From Terriglobales bacterium (lineage in GTDB: Bacteria > Acidobacteriota > Terriglobia > Terriglobales > Acidobacteriaceae): a stretch of DNA of 38,095 nucleotides. Numbering within the stretch: position 1 is the stretch's first letter; each line of letters begins with the position of its first letter. Where the stretch lies: NCBI GenBank assembly GCA_024281115.1, contig JAMXLI010000221.1, forward strand, positions 1 through 38,095. The letters run 5' to 3'. Both the position numbers and the translations under genes were made by a program. Positions 23,799 through 31,218 of this stretch are shown here, piece by piece. A model generated the notes under the pieces. The model had not been told where the DNA came from. It made no database searches and was given only the letters and a program-made list of their open reading frames with translations.

Positions 23799-23989
23799 GG
23801 CCGTCCTCCAGGTATACGCAACAATAAGAGGGTGTCCAGTGCCGAGAAGATGCCTGCTATATGCCACAGGAACCACTGCAGGACCTGGGAGCGCTGCCTC
23901 CGAAGGTCCTGCTCGAAAGGGAGTACCACCCCAGCCCAGGTTGTAGTAAAAGCTTCTACCACCAGACCGTTTCTCGCTGCGAGGGGCAC

Positions 23990-24688
23990 ATGTCGAGCAA
24001 CGCCTTCCTGCTTTGCCCGGATAGTTCAACTGCCGAACTGCTGGCTGGGGAGCTCGCCCGGCAGGGAGTGCCGGTGGAGCGCGCCTCCGAATTCATGCAG
24101 GGCTTCGACCGCCTGGCGCAGCAGGCTTTCCAACTGATCATCGTCGATACCGCCGACAGCGAGCGCGCCCTGCTGGTGATCCACAGCGTGCGGACTGGGA
24201 CGCTGAACGCGCGGGCCTTTGTTATCGCGCTGGCCGAGCCCGGCGCGGCCGGTACCCGGAATTTCCGCGAAAGTGGCGCGAACATGCTGCTGTTCAAACC
24301 GCTCACCCCCGAGCGCGTCTCCACCAGCCTGGAGAATGCCCTTACCGCAATGAAGCACGAGCGGCGCCTTTCCTCCCGCAGGCCTCTCACCATGACCATT
24401 TCCATCGGCATGAATGGGCAGCGGGAGATGGCCGCGGAAGTGGAAGACTGCAGCGCCGGCGGCATGGCGGTGCGCACGGCCGAGCCGCTTGCTCCGGGGG
24501 GTGCTCTGAAGCTGCGCTTCCACCTCCCCAATCACCGCGAGTTGCAGGAGGCGAGCGGGGAAGTGGTATGGAAAGACCTGTCCGGGCGTTTTGGAATCCG
24601 CTTCCTCGATTTGACGGAAGACACGCGCCGCCTGCTCTCGGATTGCCTGCGACCGGAGTCGAGCGGCAGCGCCCCACGATCAGGGTAA
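23990..24688 (+). CDS. Receiver-like plus PilZ domain protein
   Basis: 232 residues from an ATG preceded by GAGGGG. Residues 1-118 look like a divergent receiver domain: the first strand SNAFLLCPDSS lacks the usual acidic pair, but D53 (IIVDTADS) and K103 (LLFKPLTPE) occupy the phospho-acceptor and Lys positions. Residues 122-215 form a PilZ domain with RLSSR (R126, R130) and DCSAGG (D153, S155, G158), the two motifs needed to bind c-di-GMP, and ending FGIRFLDL. It is thus a candidate cyclic-dinucleotide effector tied to an input receiver. It stands alone and may respond to the GGDEF enzyme encoded 6 kb away or to others. Confidence 0.82.
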   Translation: MSSNAFLLCPDSSTAELLAGELARQGVPVERASEFMQGFDRLAQQAFQLIIVDTADSERALLVIHSVRTGTLNARAFVIALAEPGAAGTRNFRESGANMLLFKPLTPERVSTSLENALTAMKHERRLSSRRPLTMTISIGMNGQREMAAEVEDCSAGGMAVRTAEPLAPGGALKLRFHLPNHRELQEASGEVVWKDLSGRFGIRFLDLTEDTRRLLSDCLRPESSGSAPRSG

Positions 24689-24759: not shown

Positions 24760-24853
24760 GGTAATTCTCGGTTTGGCCGGGGATCACCAGGGACGGGAAA
24801 CTATGGTGCGCCTGGGCCAGCCCACAAGCCTTAAAAAGCGCGATAATCAGGGG

Positions 24854-25915
24854 ATGCGAAAGTTGCCGGGCGTATCTGTGACTCTTGCGCTGCTGGTCTT
24901 GCTGGCCGGCGCCCAGGCGCAAATCCTCGCCCGGCGGCTGATCATGAAAGACGGCTCCTACCAGGCGATTACGGCCTACGAGGTCAAAAACGGCCGGGTC
25001 CGTTACCGGAGCGCTGAACGGAATGAGTGGGAAGAGGTTCCGGCGGCGCTGGTGGATTGGGAGGCGACCAAGAAATACGAAGAGCAGCGCTCGCAAGGCG
25101 CGCCGCCGCCCGAGGCCGCGGATGCGGAGAAGGAGATCCAGGCCGACGCAGCCGCCGACCGGGCAGCGGCCGAAGCCGCCACGCCCACCGTGGCCCCGGG
25201 ACTGCATCTGCCCGACGTGGAAGGCATTTTCCTCCTCGACAACTACCAGGGACAGCCGCAACTGCTGGAAGTGCAACAGAATAGCGGGGAAATCAACCGC
25301 AACACCAAGAGCAACATCCTGCGCGCAACCATCAACCCGCTGGCCTCCAGCAAGCAAACCATCGAACTGAAAGGCGCGCATTCGCCTGTGCAGGCGCACG
25401 CATTGCGCCCCACGGTTTTTATCAACCTGGAGCAGGATGCGGCCACCGACACCAAGATCCACACTGACCGGAGCGTTCCGGAGAAGGGTTCAGGGCCGCA
25501 ACAGCCGCAGGGGCCGAGCCTTGGGCGGCAGCAACCGCAGCAGCCGGAGGGACCGGTCCAGCCTTTGCACGAGCCCGGGCAGCAATACCGGTTGGTGCGC
25601 ATGGATCAGAAGAAAGACGCGCGCGTGGTGGGCGCCCTGAAGGTGGCTATCTACGGCAAGGTCTCGCAGCAGACCGGGGCCGTGATTCCGGCCACCACAG
25701 AAACCCTTTCGGGCAACTGGATCCGAGTGACTCCGCTGCACGACCTGGCGCCCGGCGAATACGCCGTGGTCGAAATGCTGAGTCCCAAGGAAATGAACCT
25801 GTACGTTTGGGATTTTGGCGTGAATCCGGCGGCGCCTCCCAACGCTTCCGCCTGGAAGCCCGCCCCAGCTCCCGGCAAGGCCGCGTCCCCGCCCGCGCTC
25901 GATAGACGCCCGTAA
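24854..25915 (+). CDS. Exported protein of unknown function
   Basis: 353 residues. A Sec signal peptide (hydrophobic core SVTLALLVLLAGAQAQ) is followed by a compact segment IMKDGSYQAITAYEVKNGRV through NEWEEVPAALVDWEATKKYE. I have the impression that this segment recurs in exported acidobacterial proteins, but cannot check it. An Ala/Glu-rich linker, a mid domain (LHLPDVEGIFLLDNYQG, IELKGAHSPVQAHALRPTVF), a Gln/Pro-rich low-complexity stretch around 215-245 and a C-terminal domain with LAPGEYAVVEML come next. There is no catalytic motif. The chosen ATG has AGGGG only a few bases before it; the open frame extends 27 codons further to a TTG, but that stretch precedes the signal peptide. It has no operon partner. 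Confidence 0.7.
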   Translation: MRKLPGVSVTLALLVLLAGAQAQILARRLIMKDGSYQAITAYEVKNGRVRYRSAERNEWEEVPAALVDWEATKKYEEQRSQGAPPPEAADAEKEIQADAAADRAAAEAATPTVAPGLHLPDVEGIFLLDNYQGQPQLLEVQQNSGEINRNTKSNILRATINPLASSKQTIELKGAHSPVQAHALRPTVFINLEQDAATDTKIHTDRSVPEKGSGPQQPQGPSLGRQQPQQPEGPVQPLHEPGQQYRLVRMDQKKDARVVGALKVAIYGKVSQQTGAVIPATTETLSGNWIRVTPLHDLAPGEYAVVEMLSPKEMNLYVWDFGVNPAAPPNASAWKPAPAPGKAASPPALDRRP

Positions 25916-27279: not shown

Positions 27280-28557
27280 CTAGGTGCCCTCTGACCAGCT
27301 TGCCAGGTATTCCTCCTGCTCGGGCGTGAGGCGGTCAATTTTAATGCCCATGGACTCGAGCTTCAGGCGCGCCACCCGCTTATCTAAATCCTCCGGAACG
27401 GGATAGACCTTCTTCTGCAAGTCCTTGTGGTTTTTGACCAGGTATTCCACCGAGAGCGCCTGGTCGGCAAAGCTCATGTCCATCACGGCGGCGGGGTGAC
27501 CTTCGGCGGAGGCCAGGTTGATGAGCCGGCCCTCGCCGAGCAGGTTGATCTTGCGCCCGTCGCGCATGGAGTACTCCTCCACAAAGGGCCGCGTGGTGCG
27601 CTTGGAGGAAGCCATCTTCTCCAGCGTGGGAATGTCAATCTCCACGTTGAAGTGGCCGGAATTGGCGATGATCGCCCCATCCTTCATCGCCTCGAAATGC
27701 TCGCGCGCCAGAACGTTCTTGTCGCCGGTGACGGTGACAAATACGTCCCCGATGCGCGCTGCTTCGTGCATCGACATAACGCGGTAGCCGTCCATCACGG
27801 CTTCCAGCGCGCGCGTGGGATCCACTTCGGTGACGATGACTTCGGCGCCCAGGCCGCGGGCGCGCGAGGCCAGGCCGCGCCCGCACCAGCCATACCCCGC
27901 GACCACGAACTTGCTTCCCGCCAGCAGCACGTTCGTGGCGCGCACCACGCCATCCACCGTGGATTGGCCGGTGCCGTAACGGTTGTCGAACAGGTGCTTG
28001 GTAAGGGCGTCGTTGACCGCGATGATGGGATAGCGCAGCACTCCTTCCTTGGCCATGGCCCGCAGCCGGATCACGCCGGTGGTGGTCTCCTCGGTGCCGC
28101 CCAGGATGCCCTCGGCCACATCGGTGCGCTTGGTGAGAACGCAGGTGACCAGGTCGGCGCCGTCATCCATAGTGATGTGTGGCTTGTGGTCGAGCGCGGC
28201 GGTGAGGTGGCTGTAATAGGTGTCGTTGTCCTCGCCCTTAATGGCGAACACGGGGATGCCGTAATCGCGCACCAGGCAGGCGGCGACGTCATCCTGGGTG
28301 GAGAGAGGATTCGAGGCGCACAAGGCCACTTCGGCGCCGCCATCGCGCAGGCAGATGCCCAGGTTGGCCGTCTCGGCGGTCACGTGCAGGCAGGCGGAAA
28401 TGCGAATGCCCTTCAGCGGCTGGTTCTTGATGAACTCTTTGCGGATGCCCTGGAGCACTTTCATGGACTGGTTGGCCCAGTCGATGCGCTTCCTGCCAAG
28501 GTCGGCGAGCTCCAGGCTCCGAATATCGCAGGCGATTTGAGCGGGCGTGGTGGACAT
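27280..28557 (-). CDS. ahcY: Adenosylhomocysteinase (S-adenosylhomocysteine hydrolase)
   Basis: 425 residues; splits S-adenosylhomocysteine to adenosine and homocysteine with bound NAD in the cytoplasm, relieving product inhibition of methyltransferases. Landmarks: [53 protein letters not shown], the NAD-binding [13 protein letters not shown] and [10 protein letters not shown]. The length indicates the short form, without the roughly 40-residue insert of many bacterial and eukaryotic enzymes. AAGGAG stands only 3 nt before the ATG. It lies 113 nt downstream of metK in the same direction, a logical SAM-cycle pair. Confidence 0.96.
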
Positions 28558-28670: not shown

Positions 28671-29861
28671 CTATCGGCTGACCGCGTGTACCGGCTGGTC
28701 GGCCTTGCTCAAGCCGGCATCGCTGCGCAAAGCGTCGGCTTTGTCGGTGGCTTCCCAACTGAAGTCTGGATCAGGACGGCCGAAGTGGCCGTAGGCCGCC
28801 GTCTTCTTGTAGATCGGTCGGCGCAGCCGCAGCGACTCAATGATGCCCTTGGGCGTGAGCTTGAAGTGCGCCCGCACCAGCTCCTGAATCTTCTCGGGAG
28901 CGATTTTGTGCGTTCCGAACGTGTCCACCAGAACGCTTACCGGCTCGGCCACACCGATGGCGTAGGCGAGCTGCACTTCGCAGCGGTCGGCAACGCCCGA
29001 GGCGACCACATTCTTGGCGATGTAGCGCGCCATATAGCAGGCCGAGCGGTCCACCTTGGTCGGGTCTTTGCCGCTGAAGCAGCCGCCGCCATGACGGCCC
29101 ATGCCCCCGTACGTGTCCACGATGATTTTGCGCCCGGTCAGCCCGGTGTCGCCCATCGGACCTCCCACCACGAAGCGCCCGGTGGGATTGATGTGGTACT
29201 TGGTGTCGGGGTCGAGCATGTGCGCGGGCAGCACGGACTGGATCACGTGCTTCAGCACCTCGGCGCGAATCTTGTTGTTGTCCACCGTTTCCGAGTGCTG
29301 GGTGGAGATCACCACGGCGTCAATGCGGACGGGCTTATGGTTGGAATCGTACTCAACGGTGACTTGCGACTTGCCGTCGGGGCGGAGCCAATCGAGGTCG
29401 CCATTCTTGCGCACATCTGAAAGCCGGTGGGTCAGCTTGTGCGCCAGCATGATGGGCGTGGGCATGAGCTGCTCGTTCTCGTTGCTGGCGTAGCCAAACA
29501 TCATGCCCTGGTCGCCGGCGCCGCCCGGGTCCACGCCCATGGCGATGTCGGGCGACTGCTCGTGAATGGAGGAAATCACCGCGCAGGTCTGCGAATCGAA
29601 GCCGTAAGTAGCGTCGATGTAACCCACGGAGGTGACGGTTCCCCGGACGATGGAGGGAAAGTCCACATAAGCTTTCGTCGTGATCTCACCCGCGATGAAG
29701 GCTAACCCGGTGGTCAGCAGGGTCTCGCAGGCGACGCGGCTGTACTCGTCCTCGGTGAGGCAGGCGTCCACGATGGCATCGGAAATCTGGTCGGCAATCT
29801 TGTCGGGATGGCCTTCGGTGACCGATTCAGAGGTAAAAAGAAAACGGTTTCTTGCTGCCAA
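28671..29861 (-). CDS. metK: S-adenosylmethionine synthetase
   Basis: 396 residues; makes SAM from methionine and ATP in the cytoplasm. Landmarks: [20 protein letters not shown], the MgATP-binding [33 protein letters not shown] and [17 protein letters not shown]. The start is chosen as the TTG at 29859-29861, giving LAARNRFLF, because AAGGAG sits exactly six bases upstream. The GTG 16 codons earlier has no such site and would add a tail that is not typical of the family. A TAGAAT element at 29961-29966 may be the promoter. It is probably cotranscribed with ahcY. Confidence 0.95.
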
Positions 29862-30165
29862 AGCAGGCTCCTTGCGCGATGTGGAGGCCGTTCCGGAGGG
29901 CACAGCCACAAAAGTTCAAAAGTCATCCCGGCCGCACAGCAGAACACCGGGACACCTTCGATTCTATTGAGGTTAGCAAACCGGGACGGGGGGTGCAATC
30001 GGCGCCCGGCAGACGGCGAATCTGGGCGGTTCAGCAGCGCCAGGTGCCTGCCCAGAGGCAGCTTGCAACGTTACAAAAGGTATGCCGGGCACTCGGGCGG
30101 CGGTTGCCGGTGTGCGGAAGCGAGGCGATAATGAGGCACCCCTTGCACGCTGACGGGACCCAACC
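29862..30165. other. Divergent region between metK and the GGDEF gene
   Basis: 304 nt holding the promoters of both genes. On the bottom strand CAATAGAATCGAAGG (29955-29969) includes a -10-like TAGAAT (29961-29966) about 100 nt before metK. An inverted repeat GGTT-TGCT-AACC lies just upstream of it. No S-box, SAM-II or c-di-GMP/cGAMP (GEMM) riboswitch core is recognisable by eye. Confidence 0.4.
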
Positions 30166-31218
30166 ATGACCGAGGCGGCCGGCACGGAGAGGAAGCGCTA
30201 TATCGCGGAAATGAACATTTTCCACGATGTAGCCAAAGCCCTCACCTCGTCCCTGGACCTGGCTTCCATCCTGCAAACCATCATGGAAAAGATGGCGGAG
30301 TACTTCCGCCCCGACACCTGGTCGCTGCTCATGGTGGACGAGGAGCGCGACGAACTCTATTTCGCCATCGCCGTGGGCGACGCGGCCGAGAAGCTGAAGA
30401 GCGCGCGCGTGAAGATGGGGGAGGGCATCGCGGGCTGGGTGGCGCGCCACGGCGAGCCGCTGGTCGTGCCCGACGTGCGCACCGACCCGCGCTTTGCCAA
30501 GCGCTTCGATCAGATGACCCAGTGGGAAACCCATTCCATCATCTGCCTGCCGCTGCGTTCCAAGCACCGCGTGATGGGGGTCATCCAGCTGGTGAACGTC
30601 AGCATGGACGGTTTTGGCGAGAACGAGATGTTCTTCCTGCAGTCGCTGTGCGATTACGCCGCCATCGCCATTGAGAATGCCAAAGCTTTCGAGCGCATCC
30701 AGGAACTCACCATCACCGACGACTGCACCGGGCTGTTCAACGCGCGCCACCTGTACAAGACGCTGGAAACCGAGGTGTATCGCGCTTCCCGCTTCGGGCA
30801 GGAATTCACCGTGGTCTTCATTGATCTGGACCATTTTAAGCAGGTGAACGACACCCACGGCCACCTGGTAGGCAGCAAGTTGCTGGCCGAGGTGGGCTAC
30901 GCGGTCAAGGCGCGCCTGCGGCTGATTGATTACGCCTTCCGTTATGGCGGCGACGAGTTCGTGGTGCTGCTGCCCCAAACCGGCAAGGACGCCGCCCTCG
31001 TCGTAGCCAAGCGGCTGCGCGAGATGTTCCGCTCCAGTTGCTTCTGCAAAGACGAAGGCTTGAACCTGAACGTGCGTGCCAGCATGGGCCTGGCTACCTT
31101 TCCCGCCGACGCGCACAGCGCCCACGAGATCATCCGCCAGGCCGACGAGATGATGTACGTCGTGAAGAACAGCACGCGCGACAACATCAGCGTGGCCAAG
31201 CGCGGCCTGGTGAAGTAA
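30166..31218 (+). CDS. GAF-GGDEF cyclic-dinucleotide synthase, candidate Hypr type (3',3'-cGAMP)
   Basis: 350 residues: a GAF domain (about 16-175; IAGWVARHGEPLVVPDVRTD, SIICLPLRSKHRVMGVIQLV), a short helix with TDDCTGLFNARHL, then a GGDEF domain. The active-site YGGDEF (261-265) is intact, with an I-site RLID (R252-D255) five residues before it. The key feature is in FKQVNDTHGHLVGSKLL. N228 matches PleD N335, but the guanine-contacting Asp (PleD D344) is Ser237. Asp-to-Ser here is the hallmark of Hypr GGDEF enzymes, which accept ATP and make 3',3'-cGAMP, known from Geobacter and reported from an acidobacterium. Making c-di-GMP as well remains possible. It lacks membrane segments and so is cytoplasmic; the GAF ligand is unknown. 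The gene is monocistronic or leads into tldD, 133 nt downstream. Confidence 0.88.
   Translation: MTEAAGTERKRYIAEMNIFHDVAKALTSSLDLASILQTIMEKMAEYFRPDTWSLLMVDEERDELYFAIAVGDAAEKLKSARVKMGEGIAGWVARHGEPLVVPDVRTDPRFAKRFDQMTQWETHSIICLPLRSKHRVMGVIQLVNVSMDGFGENEMFFLQSLCDYAAIAIENAKAFERIQELTITDDCTGLFNARHLYKTLETEVYRASRFGQEFTVVFIDLDHFKQVNDTHGHLVGSKLLAEVGYAVKARLRLIDYAFRYGGDEFVVLLPQTGKDAALVVAKRLREMFRSSCFCKDEGLNLNVRASMGLATFPADAHSAHEIIRQADEMMYVVKNSTRDNISVAKRGLVK

Follow-up and report, generated by a model that had tools for sequence, protein, structure and literature searches.

What is the product of a GGDEF protein that carries Ser at the position where canonical diguanylate cyclases have Asp, what switches such an enzyme on and what does it control? 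The question is raised by a gene for a GAF-GGDEF protein in the window (the whole stretch of DNA analysed, 38,095 bases of contig 221 of a draft genome of 3.58 Mb in 349 contigs); the features of the locus are collected in Table 1. The initial annotation had equated N228 and S237 of the protein with N335 and D344 of PleD, and had described the YGGDEF motif and the RLID I-site as intact. Both equivalences held when the protein was aligned, at residue level, with PleD and the crystallised Geobacter metallireducens GacA sequence (6d9m) and its residues were counted directly, and the direct count found both motifs in place. N339 and S348 lie at the expected offsets within the 6d9m sequence when it is aligned to the window protein, and because 6d9m is a crystal structure the alignment register is fixed.

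Table 1. Features of the Hypr locus in the window (GmGacA, G. metallireducens GacA)
Feature	Position	Strand	Basis or remark
GAF-GGDEF protein, predicted Hypr-type 3',3'-cGAMP synthase, 350 aa	30166..31218	+	ORF, ATG start
GAF domain, cyclic-nucleotide-binding kind, residues 31-169	30256..30672	+	Pfam; solved relatives 5w10 (Lcd1), 1ykd, PDE5, PDE10
GGDEF catalytic domain, residues 183-339	30712..31182	+	Pfam; top solved match 6d9m
Ala193, cross-dimer position (= Tyr304 GmGacA; Arg in most diguanylate cyclases)	30742..30744	+	alignment; role PMC6456294
Asn228, base recognition (= PleD N335, GmGacA N339)	30847..30849	+	alignment, direct count
Ser237, selectivity residue (= PleD D344, GmGacA S348)	30874..30876	+	alignment, direct count
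RLID inhibitory site, residues 252-255, intact	30919..30930	+	direct count, alignment
GGDEF motif, Asp form, residues 261-265 (YGGDEF = 260-265)	30946..30960	+	direct count
metK, divergent neighbour of the Hypr gene	28671..29909	-	Pfam; gene order
ahcY, the other member of this divergent pair	27280..28557	-	Pfam; gene order
Secreted protein without assigned function	24773..25915	+	in about 40 relatives, homologues convergent with the Hypr gene and immediately downstream of it

Three marks distinguish Hypr enzymes, namely position 348 occupied by Ser or Thr, a GGDEF motif in its Asp form and a cross-dimer residue other than Arg; the Asp form goes exclusively with Ser/Thr in these enzymes, which never carry GGEEF (the 'Goldilocks' pairing), and 94% of predicted diguanylate cyclases have Arg as the cross-dimer residue (PMC6456294). 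The window protein bears all three, with Ser237 where canonical diguanylate cyclases have Asp and Hypr enzymes Ser or Thr, a GGDEF motif with Asp, and Ala193. When it was compared with characterised Hypr domains, as the initial annotation had proposed, its best solved GGDEF match was the Hypr domain of GacA (6d9m; 146.9 bits vs 105.3 for the next GGDEF entry, 41 bits apart). At the sequence level, these features agree throughout with the candidate Hypr enzyme of that annotation, and two of them, the non-Arg cross-dimer residue and the combination of Ser with GGDEF, go beyond it. We infer that the product is very probably mainly cGAMP. A homodimer would join one ATP and one GTP to give mainly 3',3'-cGAMP and, as a by-product, c-di-GMP; Ser237 would allow the pocket to accept adenine or guanine, Asp263 of the GGDEF motif would maintain the right metal distance, at the cross-dimer position Ala193 would take the place of an Arg that favours guanine, and the RLID site would serve feedback inhibition by c-di-GMP. 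Another protein to be considered here is Cabther_A1065, whose source we take to be Chloracidobacterium, an acidobacterium. Its citation in an earlier study (PMC6456294) agrees with the statement in the initial annotation that acidobacterial Hypr relatives had been reported.

The closest solved GAF domain is that of Lcd1 of Leptospira (5w10), and the other close solved relatives are those of a cyanobacterial adenylate cyclase (1ykd), PDE5, PDE10 and PDE2. Lcd1 has the same order of domains as the window protein, GAF and then GGDEF, and its GAF domain, which responds to cAMP, activates the GGDEF domain (PMC8846402); Lcd1 is, however, a c-di-GMP synthase, whereas the window enzyme has a Hypr pocket. 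The genome of the window contains three clear class III cyclase domains. The likeness to cyclic-nucleotide GAF domains, the example of cAMP-activated Lcd1 and the presence of these cyclases together point to gating by cAMP: as in Lcd1, the GAF domain may bind cAMP and thereby switch the enzyme on, an analogy on which we place evenly balanced confidence.

To place the protein among its relatives, we supplemented the sampling by a scan of named genomes, which added acidobacterial, myxobacterial, desulfuromonad and bdellovibrio sequences as well as many canonical GGDEF domains, and the three trait columns were taken out before tree building. In a quick tree of 165 rows, 76 of the 77 Ser/Thr rows and five Gly/Ala rows made up one branch that held no Asp row (SH-aLRT 95), and both GacA and the window protein were inside it. 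A careful tree of 80 rows gave nearly the same picture, with one long-branched Asp row (L205) inside the Ser/Thr group, and constraining the Ser/Thr group to stay together did not worsen that tree (lnL +0.46, p-AU 0.50). The group also contains myxobacterial and bdellovibrio relatives. Clustering with canonical enzymes that happen to carry Ser, which the initial annotation had named as the outcome to watch for, did not occur; the protein grouped with GacA although the trait columns had been removed. In the trees, one Ser-bearing GGDEF domain (L199) did not group with the Hypr enzymes and is perhaps an independent gain.

Within the Ser/Thr group, GacA branches with proteins of the receiver type (96/93); the window protein joins GAF-GGDEF proteins from its own class, from Myxococcaceae and from Desulfuromonas (97/89). 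This GAF-GGDEF subgroup, whose members are known here from sequence alone, is a branch separate from the receiver-type GacA subgroup. We therefore assign the protein to the known Hypr family as a new member; the GAF-GGDEF branch to which it belongs is widespread across its class. GacA of Geobacter (GSU1658; Gmet_1914, PDB 6d9m) is 47% identical to it over the GGDEF domain and has in common with it the Ser, the GGDEF motif, the Asn, a non-Arg cross-dimer residue, the I-site and the tree group, but GacA has an N-terminal receiver domain, which the window protein lacks; the latter has a GAF domain of the cyclic-nucleotide kind instead. A Corallococcus protein (L173, Myxococcaceae), 48% identical over 338 residues, resembles it further in its GAF-GGDEF layout (Pfam), in having Ser at the selectivity position and Ala at the cross-dimer position, and in tree subgroup; its gene lies upstream of mreC and PBP2, whereas the window gene lies beside metK and tldD. 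The counterpart of this Myxococcaceae GAF-GGDEF Hypr protein in M. xanthus is, judging by length, presumably MXAN2643. Bd0367 of Bdellovibrio bacteriovorus, a Hypr enzyme with Ser (S214) and an intact I-site for which cGAMP has been shown in vivo (PMC9140294), is like the window protein, by its published description, in having both the Ser and the intact I-site; a bdellovibrio relative of it (L188) is placed, unlike the window protein, in the receiver-type subgroup.

When the genome of the window and those of 60 relatives were searched, 48 of these 61 genomes gave matches at E <= 1e-40, some of the weaker ones being Asp-type paralogues. Identity was 70-83% across many genera of the window's family and 54-61% in the other families of the class, and every class-wide orthologue read kept the selectivity Ser (sometimes Thr), YGGDEF and a non-Arg cross-dimer residue. 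Since Hypr-type domains account for 0.17% of GGDEF domains (PMC9140294), yet Ser/Thr is invariant in the orthologues read, chance does not explain the residue. At this position Asp is found in the five further full GGDEF domains that were read in the window's genome (L001-L004, L006). Among all collected rows, a few duplicates included, the GGDEF motif had Asp in 137 of the 137 aligned Ser/Thr rows and the cross-dimer residue was Arg in none of them, compared with 65 of the 88 aligned Asp rows. The remoter best matches across the phylum mostly have Ser, and a few have Gly or Ala. These results would widen the known range of cGAMP signalling, so far a few deltaproteobacteria, to most sampled genera of the window's family and to many families of the phylum, in which the Hypr gene appears to be a core gene and not an oddity. 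In several Hypr-group proteins from acidobacteria, the selectivity Ser is replaced by Gly (L095, L096, L098, L118) or Ala (L109), and most of these proteins keep GGDEF, a non-Arg cross-dimer residue and a neighbourhood with FecR and mreB.

GacA acts via cGAMP riboswitches, whereas none was found in the window protein's genome: the scan for cGAMP-type GEMM-I elements that the initial annotation had suggested returned no match to RF01051 in the draft of 349 contigs. Four of the 61 genomes have GEMM-I, in all cases of the G20 (c-di-GMP) kind; as a positive control, the same search recovered many elements, some of them A20, from Hypr-carrying desulfuromonad genomes. In the Rfam model, as we take the numbering to run, position 20 is the unpaired G that precedes the first helix. 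A cGAMP riboswitch was accordingly rejected as the output, and the signal would be read by a protein receptor instead. Six HD-GYP matches in the window's genome could be enzymes that remove it. Outside the window's class, some acidobacterial families have several GEMM-I elements (L246, L253, L260, L264, L319-L328), and in one of them (f26) GEMM-I occurs together with a Hypr gene; a few of these elements have A at position 20 or a GCC...CGGAAAG scaffold and may be cGAMP riboswitches.

The neighbours of Hypr genes were clustered and examples were checked by Pfam (MreB, MreC, PBP2, RodZ, FecR). Many acidobacterial families that do not belong to the window's class have genes for a FecR-like protein, the Hypr enzyme, MreB, MreC and PBP2 in this order on one strand. 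In the window's class the Hypr gene is divergent from the RodZ gene, often in the arrangement ahcY-metK-rodZ / Hypr, and at two Myxococcaceae loci mreC and PBP2 lie downstream of it. An mreB neighbour within 2.6 kb was found in 16 acidobacterial family groups and a rodZ neighbour in six family groups of the window's class. Within 2.6 kb, mreB, mreC, rodZ or PBP2 was present at 65 of 122 Hypr loci vs none of 93 other GGDEF loci, and an earlier count with a limit of 4.5 kb gave 68 of 130 vs 1 of 92; neither comparison is made up of independent loci, and the flanks were of unequal length. The window retains the order ahcY-metK / Hypr without rodZ, and its Hypr gene does not adjoin mre or rodZ genes; RodZ_C had no match anywhere in the draft genome, and MreB is present elsewhere in it. 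As relatives have such a neighbour and the window gene does not, the link to cell shape belongs to the enzyme lineage, from which we infer it for the window gene.

Two other genes near the window's Hypr gene were considered and rejected. TldD/PmbA as a conserved partner is not retained next to the Hypr gene in relatives, and the PilZ protein (23861-24688) as a linked receptor has no match near the Hypr gene there. The gene for the secreted protein, which has no Pfam or NCBIfam match, lies beside the PilZ gene, about 5 kb upstream of the Hypr gene in the window.

Judged from the neighbourhoods in relatives, the controlled process could be cell-wall elongation or envelope stress, and cGAMP has been tied to osmotic resistance in Myxococcus (PMC12288465). 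We tentatively propose a lineage of GAF-gated, cAMP-responsive cGAMP synthases that in both Acidobacteriota and Myxococcaceae is coupled to the rod complex, and in which cGAMP made beside MreB, MreC, PBP2 or RodZ would tune cell-wall elongation or osmotic resistance via a protein receptor; for the window enzyme itself, a rod-complex output is conceivable but doubtful. One alternative, which contests this output and not the product, is that the enzyme makes cGAMP but sits beside rod genes only through old gene order, with no functional link to cell shape, and we consider it a toss-up whether this is so. In its favour, the mre cluster is an old and stable one, the counts are not independent because the association is strong inside Acidobacteriota, and the window's lineage lost its rod-gene neighbour without losing the enzyme. 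Old gene order does not readily account, however, for two different arrangements, upstream of mreB on the same strand and divergent from rodZ, to which mreC downstream in two Myxococcaceae is added, nor for the lack of rod genes within 2.6 kb of the 93 control GGDEF loci. Among the papers searched, none was found that links cGAMP to MreB, MreC or RodZ, and the genomic link between Hypr enzymes and rod genes is apparently unreported. The proposed rod-complex wiring, if true, would be a second-messenger role not described so far, and the recurrent place beside mreB, mreC and rodZ offers a concrete and testable target process for cGAMP.

As to the product, the enzyme might in practice be a diguanylate cyclase, promiscuous in vitro, that makes mostly c-di-GMP in the cell and merely tolerates the Ser. 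GSU3350 with an Asp-to-Ser change is still a pure diguanylate cyclase, so that Ser alone is insufficient for conversion, and Hypr enzymes with Arg at the cross-dimer position yield more c-di-GMP (PMC6456294). The window protein has Ala and not Arg there, however, and natural Ser/Thr Hypr enzymes with Tyr, Ser, Ala or Gln at this position make mainly cGAMP (PMC6456294); moreover, Ser/Thr and the non-Arg residue are retained together class-wide, and we consider this alternative unlikely. That the GGDEF domain is catalytically silent and serves as a sensor of nucleotides or c-di-GMP, a receptor role known for some GGDEF domains and compatible with the intact I-site, is highly improbable, because YGGDEF, including the Glu proposed as general base (PMC6456294), and N228 are intact, all orthologues retain the active-site motif, and one sub-lineage lost the I-site yet kept the active site, the opposite of what a receptor would show. 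In this sub-lineage of orthologues (L046-L048, L050, L052-L066, L072, L074, L075), Gly replaces the Arg of the RxxD I-site while Ser/Thr and GGDEF are kept, a loss that should release these proteins from feedback inhibition.
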